Assembly: GCA_028753945.1 (NCBI GenBank)
Contig: JAPNXP010000009.1
Span: forward strand, 3,162,001 to 3,226,000
Length of the DNA: 64,000 bases
Direction of reading: 5' to 3'
From: Hexactinellida sp. DTS-2022
Lineage: Eukaryota > Porifera > Hexactinellida
Of this stretch, positions 3,304-62,759 are shown piece by piece; positions within the stretch are counted from its first letter, which is position 1; the number at the start of each line of letters is the position of its first letter. The position numbers and the translations under genes were made by a program. The notes under the pieces are model-generated. The model saw nothing but the letters and a program-made list of their open reading frames with translations. It was not told the DNA's origin and did no database searches.

Positions 3304-5389
3304 TTAGGGATCCCGGATGTTCTTTCGGTGGCATTGATGTTCCGGATCGGTTGGAATGGCGGGTATGCAGTTAGTGATGAATACTACTTGTTTGTTCGTC
3401 GTACGATACTTCTTATCCATCCAAACGAGTAAGCACACCGGCTCTTCCGCCACAAGTTTCCTTTCTTCACCTTGCCTTGTACTATGAGTGAAGTTGACCT
3501 TATAGCTGTACCATTTGTATGCCCAGGTTAGAGGGTGCATTTGGTGACCACGTATTTCAGATCCTGCTCGAGGGAGGTTATGTCTGCTGTTCCAACCATG
3601 CCGGTTTGTCGTGAGCGAAGATAGGCAGCCAGGTCGAGATGCGAGAAGAACATATCGCAATAAATGACATGACCCTTTTCGAAGTAGGGTTCAGCTAGTT
3701 GTAGCACAACATCACGCCCTCCCACTGACTGTACACTGCTGCCGAGATAGATGTTCTGGGTGAGGGAGTATCCGCAACAGGCACAGCAGATGGCCCATAA
3801 CTTTATTCCGTATTTATTCGGCTTAGCGGGCATGTATTGACGCAGCACACTCCTCCCGTAGAACTTTACCATCATTTCGTCGATGGAGAGTGCTCTAGCT
3901 GGCGTGAGAAGTTTCGCGGAGTTATGATTGACATCAGTGAGCTGGTTGGCGAATTTTGCCTCAAAGCGTCTGGCTGTGCCGAGGTCCTGAGGGATGTTTT
4001 AATTGTCCATGAAGTGCAACATGGTTAGTAGCTGCTCGAAACGATCTCGCGAGGTGTGTGCTGTGAAATGTGGCAGATTGTAGATTGCGGATTTATGGAA
4101 ATATGCTCGACGATTTGGAAACTGCCAGCGATGTCCAAAGGAGGAGTCCTATGAAGCAGCGCATCTCGTTGTAGGTGGGCACTTGCCAATTTTGTAGCCC
4201 CTTTTGGTTGCGGTAGAGTATGGTCTGATGGAGAAGGCACTCTATTTGGTGTGGGCTGTAGATTGCGTCGAAAAAATCCACCGGTTCTTCGCAGTCGATT
4301 AGGTACCGTCCTTGTTGAGACAGTGTGTGCTGCTGAGATGGTGGATCAGGGTGTAGCTGATTGAGTGGTTCTGGAATGGCTGGTGCTACCTTGGAGATAT
4401 TATCTAGTGAGTTTCTGTCTACTGATAGAGCATTTTCATATGGCTCCTTGAAGAAAGGCTGTGCTTGGAGAAATTCTGTGGATTGGATCTTACTCCCTAT
4501 GAGCTGTTTGTGCTCTGCGTCCCAGATCTCAGGATAGAATCGTTCAATGGGCGTGTTTCTTAGGGTCAAGCGTCTGCGATACTTTTTCTTTTCACATTTT
4601 GTCCTGGTTTCAGTGTTTGCATCAATCGCGTATACATAGAGATCTACACGTGGTAGTCCTGTGGGTGATTTTAGATTGGTATCGGGCTTGAAGATGGGCC
4701 GGTTTTCCCAGATTTTGTAATTGTCGGGATATTACTCGGGAATCTTGTCTTTAGGAATGGGGGTTCTCATTGTGAATATTTGTGGGCTAGTTTGCAGTTG
4801 CATCTGTTCAGCGATGTAAGTGACAGTTGTAAGGGGTTTGACTTGTTGAGATTCTGGATTGTAGCGAAAGTCAGTACGTTTGGTTCTGCTGTTGAGTATG
4901 GATGGGCTTGAGCTACGTTTTCCTGTTGATCGTGTATCGAGTGATGTTTGAACTGGAGGAGGAGAAGGAGGAGGGGCTAGGTAAACTGTTGTGTGCTTGC
5001 TAGTATCTCTGTCTGAGAGGACGAGTGAATGTGTAGTTGTGGGAAGGCCATTCCAGCTAATTGGCTAGCAGGACTGGACAAGGGGCTGCTAGTTGTAAAT
5101 AAAGTATCCGACACGTCCTCGCTAGCTGTTGAAGGACCGAGTGTCGGGTTAATTGTCGAGGCGGTAGGCGTATTAGTTGAGCCAGGCACTGGGTTAGTTA
5201 AATAGTCTGCCTGTAGTAGACCGTAAAGTCCATCGTCGTCCCCATCATCCTCCGACAGAGCTCATCGTCGGAATCGTTCTGATATTGGGTTGGAGCAGTG
5301 CCTGCTGGGTGAAGAGTCTGATTGTTATCAGTCTGCAGCTGATCGTCTTCCGGATCCACAGTTGTGAGTGTGGGAAAATTAGTTGCCAT
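3304..5389 (-). pseudogene. piggyBac-type transposase, broken and C-terminally truncated
   Basis: This is a DDD transposase remnant of the piggyBac superfamily, which normally moves DNA between TTAA sites in the nucleus. The N-terminus at 5389 (MATNFPTLTTVDPEDDQ) is acidic and Ser/Thr-rich. A core domain follows with YNEMRCFIGLLLW near 4150, SIDEMMVKFYGRS near 3870-3900 and YCDMFFSHLDL near 3640. The Asp in SIDEMM and in YCDMFF correspond to the first two catalytic aspartates. Several frameshifts and stops break the frame. The sequence ends after KLVAEEPVCLLVWMDKKY, before the third aspartate and the C-terminal Cys-rich domain. No TTAA-flanked termini were found; a hAT element (5493-6182) sits just upstream of the start. 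Confidence 0.85.
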
Positions 5390-29066: not shown

Positions 29067-29364
29067 AATTTCAGGTCATTTTCAGGGCAATTTCAGGTCA
29101 ATTCAGGTAAAAAAAGTTCAGGTCAGGTCAAAATCATGCAAGATTAGGTTCAGGTCAGGTCAGGTCAGGTCAAGGCATTCAGAAAATAGGTTCAGGTCAC
29201 TCAAAGGTCAGGTCAGGTCAGGTCATGACCTGACCTTTTGACAATCCTGATGTTGACTAAGGGGAAATGAAAATTCGTTCGAGATAACGAATGTTCGAGT
29301 AATGGGCATTCGAGTTACCGGATGTTGACTGTAATAGTACACTTATAATCTAGCTTTCGTAAAT

Positions 29365-29754
29365 ATGGCAGATCGTGTCACTCAGCTTCAACAAGCTATT
29401 CATTTGCTCGCGGATCATTTCTACAATAGCATAGGAATACTACAACAAGTTGCTGAATCTGTTTCATTACATATGAAATCTGATGAAAATGATATCAGTC
29501 AATTGCCCAATAAATATTCTCGATTTGTATCTAGAACATCATACGATATATATACAATTATAGATTCTCTTCCTACTTATGAATTATCACAAGAAAACCA
29601 TAAATCTAGATTGGATTTGGCAATTAAGAATAATCATATGGCGGCCGAGGAACTTAAAGGTATTATTTTTACGGCAAAGCTTTCTCTTCTTAATATTCGT
29701 CATGCACAAACTATAATTTCTAATCTCCAGTTGAAAATGTTGAAAGAAATATGA
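29365..29754 (+). CDS. MED21: Mediator of RNA polymerase II transcription subunit 21
   Basis: The 129-residue protein starts MADRVTQLQQAIHLLADHFY, which matches the conserved N-terminus of animal MED21 almost residue for residue. Further on it keeps SRTSYDIYTIIDSLP and LSQENHKSRLDL, the family's second conserved block. The C-terminal half is a predicted coiled coil, as expected for the partner of MED7 in the Mediator middle module in the nucleus. Human MED21 is 144 residues, so this one is slightly short, mainly in the variable middle. The frame is uninterrupted and appears to be a single exon; the ATG at 29365 is chosen because homology begins exactly there. It is a rare intact host gene in this window. 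The nested MITE stack ends at 29331, so promoter or 5' UTR lies within or next to transposon DNA. Confidence 0.93.
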   Translation: MADRVTQLQQAIHLLADHFYNSIGILQQVAESVSLHMKSDENDISQLPNKYSRFVSRTSYDIYTIIDSLPTYELSQENHKSRLDLAIKNNHMAAEELKGIIFTAKLSLLNIRHAQTIISNLQLKMLKEI

Positions 29755-35236: not shown

Positions 35237-36750
35237 TTAGCTGAAATTATGAATGGAGAATTGATCTCGATAATGTTTGGCAGCCATATGGCCAGTATCC
35301 TCAACCTCAAACAGCTCACTCGGATTAGTTACATTGGAGAATTCGTCATCTAATAGAGGTTGTTTCCACATGATTGCCATATTATGCAATACTGCACAAG
35401 CAACTATTATCATGCATACTTTATCTGGAGTCATCCGAAGTTCGCCATGAAGCAGGGTTGTATCAACTCATTTTGAGTTGGCAGAATCAACTCATTTTCT
35501 TGAATGAGTTGAATGAGTTGGTGACAGTAAAATGAATGAGTTGAATGAGTTGGTAACAGAAAAATGAATGAGTTGAATGAGTTGGTAGACAAAAAATGAG
35601 TTGATACAACCCTACTTCCGACCATGGCCAGACAACTTTGACTTTGTCGTAACATTAATGCGTAGGGAGATCCAAATTTGGCCGGATCACTTTTGAGAGC
35701 CGACCGACGCAGCTGTAAATGTATTATTAAACTGAAGATTTAAGATATACGTTAGTTACAATTAGTTTAATAAAAAATGAGTTGGCAGAATCAACTCATT
35801 TTCTTGAATGAGTTGAATGAGTTGGTAACAGCAAAATGAATGAGTTGAATGAGTTGGTGAAGGAAATTTGAACGAGTTGGTAGACAAAAAATGAGTTGTT
35901 TTGCCAACTCAAAATGAGTTGATACAACCTTGCCATGAAGACAATGAAATCTACGTTTCCATCTTCCAAATGTTTGCTCAATTATAACACGTGTTTTCTT
36001 ATGAGCATAGTTATAATTGGATTGGGGAGTCGAGGCTGGTTGTCGATAGGGTGTCAGTAAGTAGGGCTTTAGCATGTAACCACTATCCCCTAATATGTGC
36101 TCCCCGGTGAATAAGTTGTTTTCAACATATATTCCAGCCCGGGAAAGCTTCCAAATGCGAGAATCGTGAACAGATCCAAGAAAACGAGCCAACACATCAC
36201 TAAATACCTACCGATCGACATATAACTTGGACATTAATTGAGTGGTAAAAATGTCGGTTCACGTAATCTGCTTCATTTTCAGATGGTTTTTTAATGCGTA
36301 TATGTGTCCCGTCAACTAGTCCAAGGACGCCTGGAAAATGAGCAATTTCGTAAAATTTGTTCTTGACTTCTGCCTTCTCAGCTGAGCGTGGCATACTAAC
36401 ATACTGGTTGTATATATCCTGAAAACCTTGTGAAACATCATGAATATAGGGAGAAGCTGAAGACTGGCTTACATTAACTCCATCTCCACAGATTATCTGG
36501 AACGTTCCAGAAGCAAAAAACTGAAGTGCAACACAAACCTGTAAATGTGGGGAGCGGCATGGGAACGATCTGTAAAGTTTAAACGATGAGCTATTAACTC
36601 AGTGATTCTTGAAATTGATGATCTAGAGAAGCGGAAACGTTGAACAAGTTCCAAATCATCATAACAATCTAAGGGATCAGTAATATCCCTAAAATTCTTG
36701 GACGTGCCATAGATGAGAGTTTTCTTCTTTGCTAGAAATAGTGGAATCAT
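35237..36750 (-). pseudogene. PIF/Harbinger DDE transposase (HARBI1-like)
   Basis: Coding blocks run from MIPLFLAKKKTLIYGTSKNF (36750) through LQFFASGTFQIICGDGVNVS and VLGLVDGTHIRIKKPSENE (first Asp). They continue with GEHILGDSGYMLKPYLLTPY (second Asp), TRVIIEQTFGRWKRRFHCLH (Glu) and MTPDKVCMIIVACAVLHNMA to a stop at 35237. All three catalytic acids are present. Lesions are a frameshift near 36540, another near 36200 and a 480-bp hAT MITE (35453-35932) inserted after FHCLHG. Removing the MITE and one duplication leaves the frame continuous at that point. Confidence 0.8.
35453..35932. mobile_element. hAT MITE rich in ATGAGTTG, TSD CCATGAAG
   Basis: It starts CAGGGTTGTATCAACTCATT and ends TGAGTTGATACAACCTTG. 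CCATGAAG is duplicated perfectly (35445-35452, 35933-35940). It holds two copies of a tandem GAATGAGTTGAATGAGTTGG block around a unique middle (35613-35774), so it may be a composite of two MITEs moved as one. Confidence 0.85.
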
Positions 36751-48231: not shown

Positions 48232-50160
48232 TTAGACATTACAACGCAATAACATTATTGCGTCGACGACTTCAGGAGCTATCTTCATTCTAAGATTATT
48301 TAGTATATATTTCAAGCCGCTGAATGTTCTCTCGACTGATACTTGGGTTACGGGCAAAGCAATAACGAGGAGGCAGAGTTGTCGTAAATCTTGGTTAGAA
48401 TGGTTTGCCCAATATTTGATTATGTCTTCAGCTTTTGGAAGACGGGGAGCATTAGATAGTCCTTCGATTGCTTCAATCATCATTTCAGATGTGCTATACT
48501 CACGGTACTTTGATGGTACTTGATTGTCCTTCTGAACGAGGAAAGCTTCCAAGGGATCATCTAGATTAGATCTAGCAACAAAGTCGGAATACATATCCTC
48601 TGTAGAGGAGTTGCATTCTTCGGTTTGAGGTTTATCCAAACTTTGCTGAAGAACAATCCTTTGCCATGTTGAGAAAAGGTGTTTTTTCGCACATTCTCTC
48701 TGCTCAGGAGATAGTAGTCGATGGTACCGGAGGTCCACGTATACCGCTCCGAGAAAGGCATTATTTTCTACAACTGAATTCTTTCGAGCTTGAAGCGCCT
48801 CTTTTAGGCAGAGCGAGAAATATGATCCCTCTTTGCCCTGACGCAGAAACTCCATCAATTCCCATTCAGCAAGGAGAGCACCAGCAGTTATTAATCGACC
48901 CTGGATGCGGGTGGTAGCATTCCTTGGAGCCTCCATATCTTTTTTTAACTGCTCGATTGCAACCCATTCTTCTCCTATCAATGCAATATTTTCGTTGAAA
49001 GTACCAAAATCATGGATTATCGGCTTAAGAACAAGCAATCGCTCGAGCATATCATAGGTAGACCCCCACCTAGTAGTAACATCAAGAATTGGTTTAGAAG
49101 CACCCCTTTCTCTTAGTTTTAGCATTAGGTTTGGAGTTCTTAGCTTCTTTACTACTCTTCTTGCTTGATCCAAGGTCTTCTTGCTGTCTACATCTCTCTT
49201 TAAAGCATCTTCGATCGCAAGCGCTAGAGTGTGCGCACCACATCGATTTATGTTAAATATGTTCATATCAAGCTGCTTGACAGCGTTGGCTACGTTTGCG
49301 TCAAGCGTTGTTTCCAAAAGGAAGTCTTGTTCATCACGATCCTGTTCCAATTCATGATCCAAAGCCTCTCCTATCTCCTCGTACATAAGCTGGCCGCATT
49401 TCACCATATTTGATGCATTGTCCGTAGTGATTGAGTAAACTTGAATCGAATTTACTCTAAATGACTTCAACACATCCAGTATACAACGTTTAATCTCCTT
49501 GCCAGTGTGGCGTTCGAACATTTCTTTTACCGCCAGGGTCCGTAATTGTAAGTGTCCCTCTTGAAAATACTGAACATTTATTCCGAGGAAACTGCGTTCG
49601 TTCCGGGAGGCGATATCAACCTTAAGACAGATATGCTTACCCTCAACCTCAGCAGCTATTACTTGACGCAATTTATTAGCTTGAAGTAGTACCCGATCTT
49701 TCATGCTTGAACGATTTAAAGTAATGTCTTATTTATCCAGCATCGACTTGAGAAGCTGGCACAGACCAGTTTTCTCAAATACCGATAATGGCAAACCATT
49801 GCTGGTCACGGATTCGACAGCTGCTCTTTCAAATTCCTCTTTAGATAGTTCTATCTCGAAGATTTTTTTCTTTGGGATTTCAGTTGTAAAATTCATAAAC
49901 GAATCCATAGCTGTTTGAATTCCAATTGCGGATGCCTCCTGTCGAGTACGCTTTGCCTGTAGGAGATCGTACCGTCCAGGGTGCTTTCTTTTCAAATGTG
50001 CTGCTAAATTCCCCGAGTGAAAGTATGACTTACCAGTACCAGATTTATTTGGAACTTTTCTTGCCTTGAATGTACAGCCCTAATGACTACACGTAGCTAT
50101 ATCGCTTCCATCCTCCAATACAATAGAAAAATCATCTTTCAATGATGATTCTAAAGCCAT
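48232..50160 (-). pseudogene. hAT transposase (ZBED type), two in-frame stops
   Basis: A single 643-codon frame runs from ATG at 50160 to the stop at 48232. TAG at codon 27 and TAA at codon 144 are its only visible lesions. The BED finger reads GCTFKARKVPNKSG...YFHSGNLAAHLKRKHPGRYD. Catalytic-domain motifs follow: HICLKVDIASRNERSFLGI, VYSITTDNASNMVKCG, NINRCGAHTLALAI and LDVTTRWGSTYDMLERL. The C-terminal dimerisation region reads LPVTQVSVERTFSGLKYIL. Absence of frameshifts in 1.9 kb indicates recent activity. The TAG falls between the first Cys of the finger and its partner. The product would excise and reinsert elements with CAGGGTTG ends. Confidence 0.88.
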
Positions 50161-51703: not shown

Positions 51704-51911
51704 ATATTATAGCAAAAATAAATATCAAGAGGTAATTTGAATATGCAAAACAAAAGCCCTAAGGTCCCAAGACTCCCAACTTAAAAACTTCCGTAGATTT
51801 TTGTTTTGTTGAGACCGATTATTGTTATGTCTATAATTAACAAAATTACTTTGTTATTATAGCATTTTGATTTGTCTTTGCTTGTCTTACTTGGTTGAGT
51901 TTTCTGAATTA

Positions 51912-53756
51912 ATGTCTTCATTCGCGTTTCCTCATATTGCTTCATTTAATTTTGTTATAAATAATATTGTGGATCTTATGGTCAAAAATTTACCTAGTCT
52001 GGAATTCAAAGGCCCCAGACATGAAAGAATTTCGCTATTTATTGAGGAGTTAAAATTTTGTAGTTCTTTTGAAGATGATCTCAATTCAATTCCCAATTTA
52101 CATTCTACTTCAATGTTGCCTATGGAATGTAAGCTTAGAGGACAATCTTATTTCGGTGTACTTAAGTTAATATGGTGCCTTAGCCAAGATGGCGTTATTA
52201 AATGCCAGACAAGTAACAAAATTGACCATATGCCAATTATGGTTATGTCTAATCTTTGTAAACTTTATAAACTTACAGATTTCGAACTACATAAGTATGG
52301 TCAAGAAATGAATGAATCCGGTGGTTATTTTATCGTTAATGGTCAAGAAAAACTAGTGCGTTTATTGTTGGTTCAAAGACAAAACTTCCCAATTGCTTTA
52401 ATTCGTGATGTGTGGATACACAAGGGCGAATCTTTTTCTGATAAGGGAGTAATTATCAGATGTGTAACTCAGGACTTTTCAGTTTCCCTTATGACCTTAC
52501 ATTTCCTGATAAATGGTTTTTGTTCAATATCAATTTCAAGGGCCGGGCATGCTTTCTCAATTCCATTGATATATATCCTCAAAGCGTTAGTTGAAGCTAG
52601 TGATTTCGAAATATTTCAACAGTTAATGTTTGCAAATCCTATCGATACCTTCCTAGAGGGTTGTGTGGTTGCAATGTTGAGATCTTCTATACAAAGTGGG
52701 CTACTAACTCAAAGTGATTTTCTTTGTTATCTTGGAAATATATACCGCATAAAATTTGATTTTCCAGAATGGTATAATGATATTGATATCGGGCGTTTGT
52801 TTTTGACCGAATGTGTTTGTATTCATCTTATTGATCAAGTGGAAAAATTTCATCTACTCATTGAGATATGCCATAAACTTTATTCGCTTGCTCAAAACAC
52901 TATCCTACCTGATAATGCAGATTCACCAATGTTCCAAGAAGTCCTTCTCCCTGGTTTTGTTTATCTGTCCGTATTGAGATCTGCAGTAATTAATTGGTTG
53001 AAAATTATTCGTTCTGAATTCGAAAAATACTTGTCTTTACATCCGCAATTAAACTACAAAGACTTTGCATACACTTTTAAAGGAACTCATGATTTTTCTA
53101 CTAGTATTTCAAATCGATTAATAAATTTTATTGCTACCGGAAATACTACTCGAGATGTGTTGGGTCTTCCTCAATTTAAAGGACTTACAATACAAGCTGA
53201 TAGGGTTAATTATCATAGATACTTTTCACACTTTTGTAGTATACATAGGGGACACTTTTTCACTGAAGTTAGAACTACAACTGTGAGAAAACTCTTGCCT
53301 GATGCGATGGGTTTTATATGCCCCGTGAATACTCCTGATGGTACTCCATGTGGACTACTTACACATCTGACAAAATCTTCTTTCATTACAATTGGGTATG
53401 AATCAATTGTAAATTTGAAACAAATTTTGTTATGCCAAGGTATGGTTCCCGTCAAGGAATTTTCTCGGCTTTGTTTTTTACATCAAGAAGCGAGAAACCT
53501 TGTTAGCATATTCCTTGATGGAAGTATGATTGGTTATTGCTCTTGTATTGGATCATTAGCATTGGTCAATGCTCTCAGACATTGGAAAGTTATGATTGAC
53601 CAAACAATTTCTCCAAACCTTGAGATTGTATTTCCTTCCCTAAAGTTCAACAGCATTTTTCTTGGTATCTTTATATTTTCTTCTCCCGGCCGCTTTATGC
53701 GTCCTTTATATAATATTTACGAACAAGCTATTGAAATGGTTGGATCATTTGAACAG
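51912..53756 (+). CDS. POLR1B: DNA-directed RNA polymerase I subunit RPA2 (RPA135), large N-terminal exon
   Basis: The 615-codon frame encodes the N-terminal half of the second-largest Pol I subunit, which forms the active-centre wall and protrusion in the nucleolus. Recognisable blocks are HIASFNFVINN, MNESGGYFIVNGQEKLVRLL, RRNFPIA-like QRQNFPIALIRDVW, NRLINFIATGN and IHRGHFFTEVRTTTVRKLLP. Then come MGFICPVNTPDGTPCGLLTH, the hallmark Pol beta-subunit motif, and GRFMRPLYNIYEQAIEMVG. The frame stops being homologous at GSFEQ, exactly at CAG|GTTAGG (53756|53757), a phase-0 splice donor. The C-terminal half with the zinc ribbon is not in the window. The start at 51912 (MSSFAFPH) is a choice; an acceptor-like TTATTATAG at 51862 allows an upstream exon instead. 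No disabling mutation is seen. Confidence 0.92.
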
Positions 53757-53762
53757 GTTAGG
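53757..53762 (+). other. Splice donor of POLR1B exon
   Basis: GTTAGG follows CAG where homology ends (after GSFEQ). R1-type repeat sequence begins within 20 bp. Confidence 0.75.
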
Positions 53763-53774
53763 TGATTATTGATT

Positions 53775-56603: not shown

Positions 56604-56984
56604 GATTTGTGCTATAATTTAGTTACCTTCGTCTGTTTTTGGAAATAAATGTATTTTCTAATTGACCCAGTATGAATTGCAAAGCGCTAAAATTACTGAG
56701 GTTAAATTATTATGTTCATAATTAAGTAGTAAATCATTGATAACCTCCTTAATGAATGGCGGATGTTTCGTCGTCGGAGGTTTCGTCGCCGGACTATTCG
56801 TCGCGGATGTTTCGTCGCTTGGATGTTTCGTCGCAGGAGGTTTCGTCGCTTGGATGTTTCGTCGCTATTACTCTATTATAGTGCAAGTTTAACTCTACTC
56901 TATTAGTATAAGGGATTATGCCACACATAATTTACAATATCGATATACATGTAGCAACAAAATCTCAATACTTTAATGTTTATA

Positions 56985-57060
56985 AATACACGAGCCCTTC
57001 GGTCTCGGTCGCTTTGCGACGGATCGGTGCTACGCACCTCAAGTTAACGGGCGCTATGTG
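56985..57060 (-). repeat. Helitron-like 3' end fragment inside the MULE
   Basis: ACGAGCCCTTCGGTCTCGGT and GTCGCTTTGCGAC are the inverted form of the 25700-25740 terminus. It may have caused loss of the MULE transposase C-terminus. Confidence 0.5.
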
Positions 57061-57453
57061 GCCTTACACCCCGCTAATTTTATTTTGTTGGTTTGGTATT
57101 TTTGGAATTGACGGTACCAGGAATTAGTACTGTTAACTTTGGTATCTTTGTTATTTTAGAATAGAGAATTTCTGGAACCAATAATCAGTTAATTAATACT
57201 TTAGACATTTTTTCAGATTAGTTTAATAGAATTGTTTATCTCCTTTAATAAACCACAATAAGAAAGGTTCACATTACAAACACACAAGTGACACAACAAT
57301 CCAGTTATATTAATGTAGATATACGTATTGAGATTATTATTTAATTCTATAACCTGTATTACTGAAAATGAAGCTGAAATAAATATTATAAAGAAAAATT
57401 ATGTGCGATACCTCTTAAATATATAAGTATATCACGATTAGGATAATCTGCAA

Positions 57454-58482
57454 CTAAATTGTATCACATTGGGGGAAATTCGCCATGAGTATTGTGAAAG
57501 AGTCGGATACATCATGTTCTGGAACAAAGGCCAGACTTGGGAGCATTCTCATAGTAATGGCAAATTCAGGATCTTCAAGGTATTGATTTGTTAATCCTTT
57601 TGATTGGATCTTCCTAAAAATATTTTGTGATAAGTGGAAGAAGCATCCAGACACGACAGCCAAAAAGTGTTCTTCGAGTACATTGAGTGAAGCTTTCTCG
57701 AAATCTACCATGATGTGAGAAGGGTTTAATGCGGGTTCTATTTGTAAAAGCTTTCTGAATACTCTGTTGTATGTGGTTTGATTTTTGTTGATAGTTAGTA
57801 TATAAATACAAGGAAATGTATAGCCATCTTTGTCAGCGTGGAGGGTGTAGAGCTGATAGAACTGTTGGGGGACAACTTTGAACGTTCCATCTGCGTACCA
57901 ATTTTGAGATTCCCTTAATATCGAAAGCATTTTTGGTGTAGCGAAGATGATAATTCTGCTAATATCTCCCACACCAGAATCAAATAGTAGGAATGGTTCC
58001 CCCTTAGGAGTTACACGATATCTCTCCAGAATATGTATTTCTGAAGCCGATGCTGAGTTAATGATTCTATCAGGTCCATTTTTATGTACACGGATCATCC
58101 TCTTAATTGATTCTGTCTTTGGAAGTTGATTAATACTTGAATCTGACATTGTTTCAACTCCGGAAGCAAATATAGCCCTTGTACTTTCATCTGAAATGTG
58201 ATCAGCACGTTCTCTCATCAAATCATAGCCTTTGAGCATTTCGATGCGTGACATATCAGGCCCATGAGTATGAGTGTCTATGATTTCGTTGGAATCTTTT
58301 GGTTTTACGATAGATAAGTTAATTTTGGTGCTTAATCTCGCTTTGCAATGACCACGATTCTCACAGACCCAGTAATATAATTCATCATTTGATTTATTTA
58401 ATGTATAAATGAATCCTAGGATTACAAGTTTATCTTTACCTCGCTTGCTTCGGATAGTTTCTGCTAATAACGGAGTTGCCAT
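57454..58482 (-). CDS. MULE transposase with N-terminal FLYWCH finger, C-terminally short
   Basis: The 342-codon open frame from 58482 has a FLYWCH zinc finger at residues about 20-75 (LGFIYTLNKSNDELYYWVCE, CKARLST, THTHGPD). A Mutator-like transposase core follows: SQNWYADGTFKVVPQQFYQL with the first catalytic Asp, PSHIMVDFEKASLNVLEEHF with the second, and SGCFFHLSQNIFRKIQSKGL (Cys-x2-His block). It stops after FTILMANFPQCDTI, before the expected third acid (Glu). It is therefore probably non-functional despite a clean frame, unless a spliced downstream exon existed. The element ends bound it closely. The C-terminus probably eroded when the Helitron-like fragment arrived. Confidence 0.82.
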   Translation of the reverse strand: MATPLLAETIRSKRGKDKLVILGFIYTLNKSNDELYYWVCENRGHCKARLSTKINLSIVKPKDSNEIIDTHTHGPDMSRIEMLKGYDLMRERADHISDESTRAIFASGVETMSDSSINQLPKTESIKRMIRVHKNGPDRIINSASASEIHILERYRVTPKGEPFLLFDSGVGDISRIIIFATPKMLSILRESQNWYADGTFKVVPQQFYQLYTLHADKDGYTFPCIYILTINKNQTTYNRVFRKLLQIEPALNPSHIMVDFEKASLNVLEEHFLAVVSGCFFHLSQNIFRKIQSKGLTNQYLEDPEFAITMRMLPSLAFVPEHDVSDSFTILMANFPQCDTI

Positions 58483-59050
58483 AGTTTGAATAAATATAAG
58501 TTATGATAATTCGGATACAGATATGCCATTTATACTTTTCTGACCTACTGTTTAGAAATGACAAGTATTGGCGTGAATATAAAGCCAAATAATAACAATA
58601 TGTGACAAAAAATACTTATTAGAAACCATACGTGATATACAATAACATTAGAAACGGCTTAAAAATTTTTGGAGTAATTAATAATCTTAATCGAAGAGAC
58701 AGCGACGAAACACCCGGCGACGAAACCTCCGGCGACGAAACATCCAAGCGACGAAACTTCCGCGACGAATAGTCCGGCGACGAAACCTCCGACGACGAAA
58801 CATCCGTTTACCCCTCCTTAATATGCTCTTTGGCTCGAGGCAGATGAATCGACTCCTTAGTATTTTTAGAACTAGAGTTGTATTTTAAAGCAAGTTCCTG
58901 CAAAACAGATTCAATTTCTCAGATGTCACTAATTGCAGTAAATGCCAGTAATGGGAACGATGTACTCTGTCCATTAAAATAGGATGAGGTGGATAAATAA
59001 GCATTGATTTCAATGTACAAATCTAGGGAGATATTTTTCGGAGATATTTT

Positions 59051-60326
59051 ACAAACCAGGGCATTTTTATTATGGGTAAATTTTGTGCATATAATTCAAA
59101 CAAATGTTCAAAATTAGTGTAACTAGTACAGTTTACTGTTAATTGAGGTGTAAGAGATAAATAGTTCATTATCTAGATAATGAGGAAAATTACCAGAAAA
59201 ATTGGATATCATTATAAGAACTGAAATTTAGCTCTAAAATCCCGCAAACTAGAGATGTAGAGATTTGTAATAAATTGATTGCATGTAAGGAGTGAGATCC
59301 GAATTTGGCCCAAACTATTGTAAATATAATTGAATGGTCAAATACTTTTGCCCATTGACTGTAGATATACATCGAGATCTGCATGGATGGATGTCGAGTT
59401 TTTGTCATATTCATGGATACTATGGACAAGCATTTCAAAATTTAACTTTGAAAATATTTCAAACCAGGGTTCTAAAGATGACTGTAAAATTTAAGGGGCC
59501 TTTTTGTTTATTTCTTAATTTTTTCCATCTAAAAAATTATTTACTAGCCTTAATATTTGTCTTCACTCCTAAATAATTTGACTTGCCTTAATTATTGTAT
59601 TAGCATTTTTCATTTATATACTTGTTATACTATTTTCCTTAAAAATTAACGGAAACTTAAAATTAAGACTGATAGCGATATTGATGAACTTTAAGTATAC
59701 AGTAAAACTTTAAGTTGATAGATATGCATAACTTAAACAACCACATCTTCTTGATTAATTGTTGATTTACTCAAACCTTCGACTCCCGGACCTCTCAGTA
59801 CGGTCACCTCTCTAATCCGGGCAGCCTTATTGGTGTGAAGTCAAGCTAAACTCAGTTTTCATTGTCCTCATTCCACTCACTTGGATTGATTTCAATTTAT
59901 TGAAAATATATTTACTGATGGTAACGCTTCCGAATTTCATGCACATCCACGTTCAACTTCACTTGTAACAAGTGAAAATGTTTTTGATAGATATGTCACT
60001 TTAGAAATTAATTTCCAATCAGGAGATGTCAGCATATGATCGGACTTTTATCTCTTAGTCATCCCCACATCTACGAATTGCGCGCTTCTGTTGTTGCAAT
60101 GTCAAAAGCTTGGGATAGTACTATCCACCGTGTTTGTTCACCTAAGATTAAATTATTCTAATTTCCCTAAATTCATTGTCCAAAACTTTTTGATGCATGT
60201 GTAGAATTTGGCCTAGCTTGAAATATGACACTAATCTGTTGGCCCTGGTCATCATAATCTGAACTCCGCTTTGTTCAAAAGTGGAATTAATGGGGCGCAT
60301 GCATTAGTCTGAATTTCCATGTAGTC
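59051..60326. other. Unassigned AT-rich stretch
   Basis: A short R1-like piece (TTACTGTTAATTGAGGTGTA, 59130) and a mariner-terminus-like segment (GGTCAAATACTTTTGCCCAT, 59336-59355) were seen; neither gives element boundaries. No gene recognised. Confidence 0.4.
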
Positions 60327-60500
60327 GTTATTTCGAATTTCCTATGTAGTCGTTAGTTCGAATACAATTTCGGGTATGTATCGTTAGTTCGTATTAAAAT
60401 GTGGCCATGTAGTCGTTAGTTCGAATTAAATGTGGGCATGTAGTCGTTAGTTCGAATCGGAATTTGGATATGTAGTCTTAAGTTCGAATTGGAATCAGTC
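60327..60500. repeat. Tandem CATGTAGTCGTTAGTTCGAAT repeats
   Basis: Five degenerate units of about 30-37 bp share TGTAGTCGTTAGTTCGAAT. They lie just beyond the 3' end of the MULE-RING gene and may be one terminal region of that element; the other end was not found. Confidence 0.65.
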
Positions 60501-60615
60501 TAAACTGAGAATATTTAATTAATTTAATCTTATATACCATAGAGAATGTGAAAATAATGAATATTAAATGGTTGTGAAGAAGAATAAAGGATAATAAATA
60601 ATGAATAATAAATGG

Positions 60616-61958
60616 TTATTGAAAAATCTGAAGTCTACTCTCTATGGAAGTACGACAAGTTGGGCAGGGCTGATTAAGTTGCTCTAACAGCTCACTACAA
60701 TTTTGACAACAATTTGCATGTCTACATGGCAGAAATAGGTAAGAACATCCCTTATTTGTAGACATACTACACATACTGGATTTCTGACCTCAATTTCTGT
60801 CTCATCGGAATATTCAGAATCATCAGTTATGTCAGATAATGTAGGTTTTTCCACATGGTTTGTATCACTCAAAGAATGACTTACGTTCTGGAGATATTGC
60901 AGGGGAGAATAATTTCCAGATATAAGCTTTACCTTCGCTAGAGTAAGGCGTTTATCATTCATAACGTCTTTCTTTTTTCTTTGTCTTGTAATTTCCATAC
61001 CCTGTTGCAATCTGGCAATTTCTTTGTCAGTGTCTACTATTATATCATTCAATATCATCAAAAAATTCCAAATTCTAGGATGACCACACTTGATTCGTGC
61101 CTTCAGTTGTCTGTGGTAAGATTCTGCTCCATTATTTGTCCCTTTTACAAGGTCAAAAATTGACAATTCCTCTGGATGAACTATAATTAACCATTGCTTC
61201 TTAAAATATTTTAAGATTTGCTTTAGTTTATGCTCCTCATTAGTAGGTAGGGATGGAATTTGTAGAAACGAATATGTTGGTTTGATGAGATCAGGTGGAA
61301 GAAAAGGAATGCCCATAATATTTTGCATGAACGATGCAAATACTTTATTTACTTGAAACTCATGCGCAAGCCCAGCCTTTTGGATTCTTCGCCAAATCGC
61401 CTCAGTATAATGAAACCAACAACCATTCATTCTAGTAGTAGGATATTGTTGTTTGAGAGCGTTTCTGGCACCTTGCTCCCAATCTGACATTGCATTTGTT
61501 GGATTTAATTGGGGAATCATGTTTGCGATCTTGCTTAAAACAGCGTTGTAAAGTTCCTCTTCTTTGGAGTTTAGGAGGCAATGGATAACTGGAAGAACGT
61601 GTTTCCCAACAGAGAAAAATATTGTCCAAAGCTGATAAAATAGTTTAGGGACAGTGTAGAATGTTCCATCAAATTGGATGTTACTAATATCTGCTGCAAT
61701 TTCATATAATTTATCAGAGAAAAAAATTACTCCAATTAAATCTCCCAATATAACTGTGGCTTTTAAATTTACTGCGAATTCTGTAAAAGTTGGCAAAATC
61801 TCACAGAATTCCAAGGATGTACGAGGAATTCGTGGTTGAAGCAATCTCCGTGAACGAAACATAGCTGATTCGCATTCATTGAACGAGATATGAGAAGTTG
61901 ATGGATCTGATCTTGTAACATCATTAAATACTTGCCTCAAGCTAAGTATTTGCCACAA
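60616..61958 (-). pseudogene. MULE transposase with C-terminal RING finger, N-terminally truncated, one frameshift
   Basis: The frame covers about 425 codons. ISNIQFDGTFYTVPKLFYQL holds the first catalytic Asp, PTNAMSDWEQGARNALKQQY the second, and MNGCWFHYTEAIWRRIQ the Cys-x2-His block. DLVKGTNNGAESYHRQLKA holds the candidate Glu. After an acidic linker (DITDDSEYSDETEIEV) comes NPVCVVCLQIRDVLTYF. A one-base frameshift near 60735 moves the RING remainder into the next frame: LPCRHANCCQNCSELLEQ, then PCPTCRTSIESRLQIFQ and a stop at 60616-60618. This is a C3HC4 IAP-type RING, suggestive of a ubiquitin ligase. The N-terminus is cut at 61958 by a foldback element, removing any FLYWCH finger. There is no real ATG at the frame start. 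Confidence 0.85.
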
Positions 61959-62726
61959 GTATTTGCTTTTTTATTTCCAGGCCAGTGTTTACTTTTTTAT
62001 TTCCAGGCCAGTGTTTACTTTCTAATTGCTCGTAAAATAAATTACCTATTGTCATGGAATAAACTAAACTTAGGTTTTCAAATACGCTGGAAACATGTAA
62101 AATACTTTTGAGAATGATTTCTCATCGAATTTAACCACAATGACGTAATCAAATATACATACCCATATATGATAATTAAAACTAATTATGAAGTAGAGAA
62201 TTGAAGTGGAGATTGAAGTAGAGATTCAGTGAACATTGGCTAAATAAGTCACAAGAACGGTCATTAAACTGACTGGGCAACATGTACATCGTCAAACAGC
62301 ACTTTTAACACTTAGATTAAAATCTAACTATACATTTCAAAAACTACAAAATATATGGTTTGATAACAATAGTATAATTATTTACTTACATCGACGTTGA
62401 AAAGAATTTGAGTGAAAGGAATGACATAATTTGTTACTGTAGTTAATTTTTATCAAGAAAAATGCCATTAGGATAAAAACGGCAAAGTTAGATTCTCAAA
62501 TTATCTAAAAAATTAACATTTATTTAACATAATTTCCATATATGGGTATGTATATTTGATTACGTCATTGTAGTTAAATCCGATAAGAAATCATTCTCAA
62601 AAGTATTTTAGATGTTTCCAGCGTATTTGAAAACCTAAGTTTAGTTTATTCCATGACAATAGGTAATTCATTTCACGAGCAATTGGAAAGTAAACACTGC
62701 CCTGGAAATAAAATGGCAAATACTTG
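61956..62726. mobile_element. Foldback element with ~200-bp arms
   Basis: CAAGTATTTGC(C) begins both arms. The left arm (to about 62175) and right arm (62525-62726) share ATTTCCAGGGCAGTGTTTAC-type sequence, TGGAATAAACTAAACTTAGG and ATACATACCCATATATG. The left tip carries an extra tandem copy of TTTTTTATTTCCAGGCCAGT. The sequence left of it also reads AAGTATTTGCC, so a short duplication or terminal repeat exists. It interrupts the 5' end of the MULE-RING gene. Confidence 0.75.
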
Positions 62727-62759
62727 ACTTATCTAGCCATATAATATAGTAGGCCATGG

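Follow-up and report, generated by a model that had tools for sequence, protein, structure and literature searches.

RING fingers are domains that often attach ubiquitin to proteins, and they have been found before in the company of DDE transposases and recombinases. The closest known counterparts of the element that we report here are the animal MULEs Phantom, Ghost and Rehavkus, which resemble it in their PF10551 DDE core, long terminal inverted repeats and target duplications of 8-10 bp, and perhaps in a FLYWCH-like N-terminal finger. According to excerpts of a 2019 study, one Ghost MULE of the aphid Myzus cerasi contains a 420-bp RING ORF that is separate from the transposase ORF, one Phytophthora MULE, 37_Pi, has a C3HC4 RING, and Rehavkus has a PHD finger and a minisatellite before its 3' TIR (PMC6446971). 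A DDE transposase or recombinase joined to a RING is likewise found in RAG1 and in Chapaev/Transib, and the RING of RAG1 has ubiquitin ligase activity, as set out in the available part of a 2015 article (PMC4411706). The initial annotation of the locus studied here knew of no described RING fusion, which was too strong a statement given the Myzus cerasi Ghost MULE and Phytophthora 37_Pi (PMC6446971, in part), as well as RAG1 and two Chapaev subgroups that also have RINGs (PMC4411706, in part).

The family described here is nevertheless distinct from each of these systems. Judged by the published descriptions of Phantom, Ghost and Rehavkus, it differs in that the RING is within the transposase frame, is C-terminal and occurs in many subfamilies of one genome, and in that one group of the family has an MDM2-like RING. 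RAG1 and Chapaev/Transib belong to another transposase superfamily and carry their RING in the N-terminal part, whereas the RING here is at the extreme C-terminus and is of the IAP/MDM2 type, with a tail. In this respect it resembles the RINGs of IAPs (cIAP1/2, XIAP and BIRC7) and of MDM2/MDM4, which are also C-terminal and have a short aromatic tail, although the partner domain here is a transposase. In the literature that we searched, with partial coverage, we met no account of a MULE family whose transposase frame ends in a RING, and neither RING nor C3HC4 occurs in the available portion of the main text of a 2026 survey of arthropod MULEs (PMC13359780). Since precedents exist and an in-frame C-terminal MULE RING was not found described, we regard the RING fusion as a variant on a known theme.

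A broken copy in the window

The window is a stretch of 64,000 nucleotides of Hexactinellida sp. DTS-2022, whose genome comprises 112.4 Mb in 18 contigs; eukaryotic genes are present in the window (Table 1). On the minus strand, at ~60292-61944, lies a MULE-RING relic, a broken copy that by its sequence is a dead, 5'-truncated DNA transposon of the MULE type (Mutator superfamily), from a family that has multiplied in this genome. The preserved transposase frame matches PF10551 in Pfam with an E-value of 1.3e-12 (48.5 bits against a cut-off of 27.6), and the third acidic residue of the core is the E of NGAESYH, which is downstream of the PF10551 match in the same frame. A second minus-strand frame, 60789-60616 (57 aa), matches zf-C3HC4_3 (PF13920; E-value 2e-9, 37.5 bits, cut-off 27). 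The first Cys pair of the RING and the residues following it are encoded in the transposase frame, down to ~60732, and the remainder of the RING, its tail and the stop codon are encoded in the second frame, from ~60753. With this change of frame within the RING, transposase and RING cannot be read as one continuous frame in the window copy. Much of this had been anticipated by the initial annotation, which proposed a transposase-RING fusion interrupted by a frameshift, with an acidic linker before the RING and a short tail after it; the linker and the tail, of 12 residues after the last Cys, are borne out, the frame switch falls within the RING, both Pfam domains score above their cut-offs in the window, and relatives have the fusion in frame. 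It had placed the element at 60616-61958, however, and the element extends further, to a 3' terminal repeat at ~60292-60490.

This 3' repeat has the terminus GGGGCGCATGCATTAG at 60292, followed by ~2.4 copies of 25-bp units (60304-60363) and ~4.7 copies of 31-32-bp units (60343-60490), and its inner end is ~126 bp past the RING stop codon. Relatives also possess an N-terminal domain and, at the 5' end, a terminal repeat, neither of which the window copy retains. We also considered whether the palindrome next to the broken 5' end might be the MULE's own terminal repeat and rejected this; the palindrome is a separate repeat, for which the 40 candidates scored out of 339 include 39 long matches outside the window, 91-95% identical to it, and the termini of the family are different arrays.

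The window contains a second MULE, of another family (FLYWCH and MULE), at 56760-58806, whose minus-strand frame 58500-57454 ends early. It is flanked by 90-bp inverted arms, 98% complementary, that consist of 15-bp GACGAAACATCCG-like units, and no RING was seen downstream of it.

Table 1. Positions of features in the window
Feature	Position	Strand	Remarks
DDE_Tnp_1_7, transposase remains	4093-4731		presumably piggyBac-like
Mediator subunit 21 (Med21)	29338-29754		likely host gene
DDE_Tnp_4, transposase remains	35791-36207		which we take to be Harbinger-like
hAT dimerisation domain, transposase remains	48232-49728		
RNA polymerase I subunit RPA2, long exon	51837-53765		Rpb2 domains and Rpa2-specific domain; likely host gene
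3' terminal inverted repeat	60292..60490	-	similar terminus and array at both ends of related copies
C-terminal RING finger, in two frames	60616..60773	-	PF13920
Acidic serine-rich linker	60776..60860 (approximate bounds)	-	between transposase and RING
Preserved transposase open frame	61970-60684	-	428 aa; similarity to relatives stops at ~61944
MULE catalytic domain PF10551	61407..61679	-	D of FDGTF and D of SDWE
Palindromic foldback, MITE-like repeat	61956..62729	.	774 bp, 200-bp arms; adjoins broken 5' end of MULE

The RING fusion across the genome

The RING fusion is real and a trait of the family, not an oddity of the window. We queried the source genome with the transposase, scoring 98 of 2140 candidates and listing 100 rows, and with the RING segment, scoring 150 of 525 candidates and listing 150 rows. 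A same-strand RING row is found downstream of at least 46 of the 100 listed MULE rows, and among the matches listed no RING row is found upstream of any of the 100, on either strand. When two more RING queries and a PF10551 search were added, at least 94 of 218 MULE loci had a RING row no more than 2.2 kb downstream and one had a RING row upstream, and at least 93 of 301 RING loci were paired with a MULE. The best-scoring loci among those RING loci without a listed MULE partner that we examined (L041, L043, L044 and L046) contain transposase pieces in all four cases.

We also made a count that was blind to the RING, in which we took the 35 transposase rows whose match is free of stops and whose open frame is 500 aa or longer, 31 of which are readable to the C-terminus; a 574-aa frame at C4:3012950 was excluded because it belongs to a copy that is listed in two pieces, the other of which contains a stop codon. 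An intact in-frame RING ends 25 of the 31 long open transposase frames, which are not 31 independent cases because several copies are near-identical. The ligand pattern of these 25 RINGs is C-x-H in 19, H-x4-H in three and both patterns in three. An intact RING is absent from the other six (L017, L033, L034, L067, L080 and L084), with a remnant visible in all of them except L033, and for the remaining four of the 35 long frames there are RING matches that lie in frames of equal length. Many copies with MULE and RING in one frame are what the initial annotation had suggested looking for; it had also named two outcomes that would count against it, namely other members without the RING and a separate host exon found at this locus only. 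The 25 of 31 frames speak against the former, and the latter is at odds with the position of the RING inside the transposon, which follows from the 3' terminal repeat and the target duplications lying outside the RING. We note that L033 (C18:1563892-1568025), which is 99.7% identical to L026 over 1823 bp, has tandem 31-bp units, read in frame, in place of the RING, and that its transposase frame is otherwise open.

The termini of the family are GGGGCGC..TGCATTAG or close variants. They are typically built of an outer 25-bp unit, repeated ~2.5 times, and of an array further in with units of 31-32 bp; inner units are 25-26 bp in one subgroup, and the terminal repeat sequence differs by subfamily. 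Repeat arrays are present on both sides in 39 of the 48 loci examined. Target duplications of 8-10 bp were found for 18 of 39 copies as compared with 16 of 1482 mismatched end pairs, and 17 of the 18 are perfect, L025 having a mismatch and doubtful ends; this terminus-based scan supersedes an earlier one, in which five of 24 loci had duplications, those of L029 at ends that are not termini of the family. Copies of the family therefore show terminal inverted repeats, and target duplications within the range of 8-11 bp, by which MULEs are recognised. L018 and L023 lie on different contigs and have different target duplications (that of L023 was identified by eye from its ends), yet over 1695 bp the two copies share 99.9% identity, which shows recent movement together with the RING. 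Searches with the family alignment gave no confirmed relatives among 64 pattern matches in viral contigs or among 19 in bacterial and archaeal genomes, as would be expected because the element is eukaryotic.

Origin, type and conservation of the RING

Unbroken copies encode a protein of ~520-570 aa. We aligned 12 near-full-length proteins, chosen for showing both transposase and RING, and PF10551 (E <= 0.01) and PF13920 are each found in 12 of the 12, PF10551 scoring 45.6 bits in L010 (cut-off 27.6). In L010 numbering, D185 and D247 of the DDE triad are present in all 12 and E367 in 11, with Lys in L036. The match to FLYWCH (PF04500) is weak, reaching E <= 0.01 in six of the 12 with a best value of 2e-4, and in L010 it scores 19.7 bits, under the cut-off of 23.6. 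A probable role of this putative FLYWCH-like finger, at the N-terminus, is to bind the repeated units in the termini of the element.

RING-less MULEs of the same genome (L085, L086 and L088) stop just after a YLxGIAYNF-like motif, and the RING family runs on from the corresponding YLxAISxTIG point into an acidic linker and then the RING. In a tree made with IQ-TREE, 25 RING-family rows, including L033, which lost its RING, are separated from five other MULE rows with a split support of 100/100, at a split where, according to the program's own warning, long branches meet; the tree omits eight of the 38 rows because they covered too few columns, and the H-x4-H rows, six in number, are all among these eight. 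Three of the five other MULE rows were seen to their end, and the RING-less state of L087 and of the window's second MULE rests on there being no RING nearby, since their frames end early. From the tree and the ends of the RING-less MULEs, a single gain is probable, in which a RING was added at the C-terminal end of a MULE transposase. The host genome itself has seven matches to BIR (IAP), five of which are clustered at C5:4489675-4500492 of G000, where no RING rows were seen among the matches listed.

The type of the RING varies within the family. Against PF13920 (cut-off 27 bits), C3HC4 forms (window, L010, L076 and L083) score 37.5 to 47.8 bits and two H-x4-H forms score 37.3 and 31.5 bits. 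The initial annotation labelled the RING IAP-type, and for the C3HC4 form L010, searched as a single sequence, the label holds: cIAP2 (E-value 7.2e-7), BIRC7 and cIAP1 are the best matches, with values ranging to 5.2e-6, and the match runs to the last residue of all three. A profile of the 12 proteins places MGRN1, which is neither an IAP nor MDM2, just above cIAP2, with cIAP1 and XIAP also among its best matches, and the H-x4-H group, MDM2-like rather than IAP-like, matches MDM2 (E-value 6.3e-6) and MDM4 (3.5e-5) best. The third zinc ligand would be His in this group (C2H2C4, MDM2-like) as opposed to Cys in the other (C3HC4, IAP-like), a difference that probably arose by a change of ligand within the family. 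Ten of 11 loci of the H-x4-H group retain both His, whereas the intervening position holds Cys in four of the 11 and Tyr or Phe in seven. In MDM2, as described in excerpts of PMC7010608, His452 stands in place of C3 and one RING Cys is not a ligand; retention of the His while the middle residue varies is what would be expected if the His is a ligand, as it is in MDM2.

To describe conservation we used 29 non-redundant open C-termini that were selected by zinc-ligand pattern, so that the invariance of the ligands among them is partly by construction. A V/I between C1 and C2, a Pro between the last two Cys, an Arg after the last Cys and an aromatic residue in the short C-terminal tail are each present in 29 of 29. 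The V/I and Pro sites are E2 contacts and a positive residue after the last Cys is also named, and in the tail Phe490 of MDM2 and Phe495 of XIAP are needed for dimerisation or autoubiquitination (PMC7010608, in part). All 29 sequences thus have the tail aromatic and the Arg after the last Cys that characterise a dimeric RING of the IAP/MDM2 type. Pairs of sequences are on average 47.6% identical over the RING, 40.5% over the core next to it and 15.6% over the linker, which is found in relatives but is variable and is the least conserved part. Median dN/dS is 0.28 for the RING, 0.38 for the core and 1.0 for the linker, values that are rough because synonymous change approaches saturation (median pS 0.67-0.77) and because dS is finite for just 164 of 406 pairs for the RING (229 of 406 for the core and 267 of 406 for the linker). 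The RING has accordingly been kept, in all probability, under purifying selection since it was gained.

Possible roles of the RING

Taken as a whole, the explanation towards which we lean, if not strongly, is that the window element is a relic of a RING-bearing MULE family whose RING would act as a dimeric E3 of the IAP/MDM2 class on the transposase or on nearby proteins. An alternative that assigns the RING to an adjacent host gene, or to chance juxtaposition at this locus, could appeal to the different frames of the two domains in the window copy and to the host's own IAP-type genes, as indicated by the seven BIR matches. It is hard to reconcile with the single frame that holds both domains in 25 of 31 long open frames elsewhere, with terminal repeats and target duplications that lie outside the RING, or with the transposase pieces at L041, L043, L044 and L046, the RING loci without a listed MULE; given these in-frame RINGs, repeats and duplications, and the downstream-only pairing, we reject the host-exon and chance readings as exceedingly improbable.

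Two further alternatives accept that the RING is part of the transposon. The RING might be an E3 directed against host defence, recruiting E2s so that host silencing or chromatin factors at the element are marked and repression is escaped; its retention and conservation across a varied family, some of whose copies are near-identical and moved recently, would fit such a role, as would the other MULEs with SET or ovarian-tumour domains that appear in a table in the available part of PMC6446971. We consider this role unlikely, however, because no substrate-binding module was identified beyond the transposase and the linker that might select substrates, at 15.6% identity, is poorly conserved. It could also be that the RING is a zinc-dependent module for dimerisation or binding that has no ligase activity and contributes to transpososome assembly. 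IAP and MDM2 RINGs do dimerise (PMC7010608, in part), and the conserved tail here matches the end of IAP RINGs; yet the residues for E2 binding and ubiquitin activation (V/I, Pro and Arg) are kept in 29 of 29 sequences, which makes pure dimerisation doubtful because dimerisation alone would not need them.

If the RING is instead a dimeric E3 module of the IAP/MDM2 class, as we favour, its tail may aid dimerisation, and transposase subunits that pair at the two ends of the transposon would place their RINGs side by side and raise E3 activity. The paired RINGs would then recruit E2-ubiquitin, and ubiquitin may be attached to the transposase as well as to chromatin or repair proteins in its vicinity, an outcome of which would be to limit the dose of transposase and to help dismantle the post-transposition complex. 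Here we proceed from observed sequence, architecture, conservation and mobility to zinc binding, tail dimerisation, E2 recruitment and ubiquitination, which we infer. The initial annotation had proposed that the transposase could ubiquitinate itself, host silencing factors or histones where it integrates, and such a mechanism is plausible. In a more specific form, which we offer tentatively, a large cut-and-paste transposon family would have a transposase that serves as a dimerisation-gated E3 ligase, with two ligand versions of the RING that arose within the family; the pairing of ends would switch on ubiquitination where transposition takes place and so couple the catalytic step to dose control, to disassembly or to the local disarming of host chromatin.

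The RING of RAG1 has ligase activity, and the immune system is a difficult setting in which to ask why a DDE recombinase needs one. A RING and a DDE transposase that were joined separately, in a family with many unbroken and some recently moved copies, offer a comparative system for this question, and MULEs would become a case of transposons that come equipped with ubiquitin machinery.
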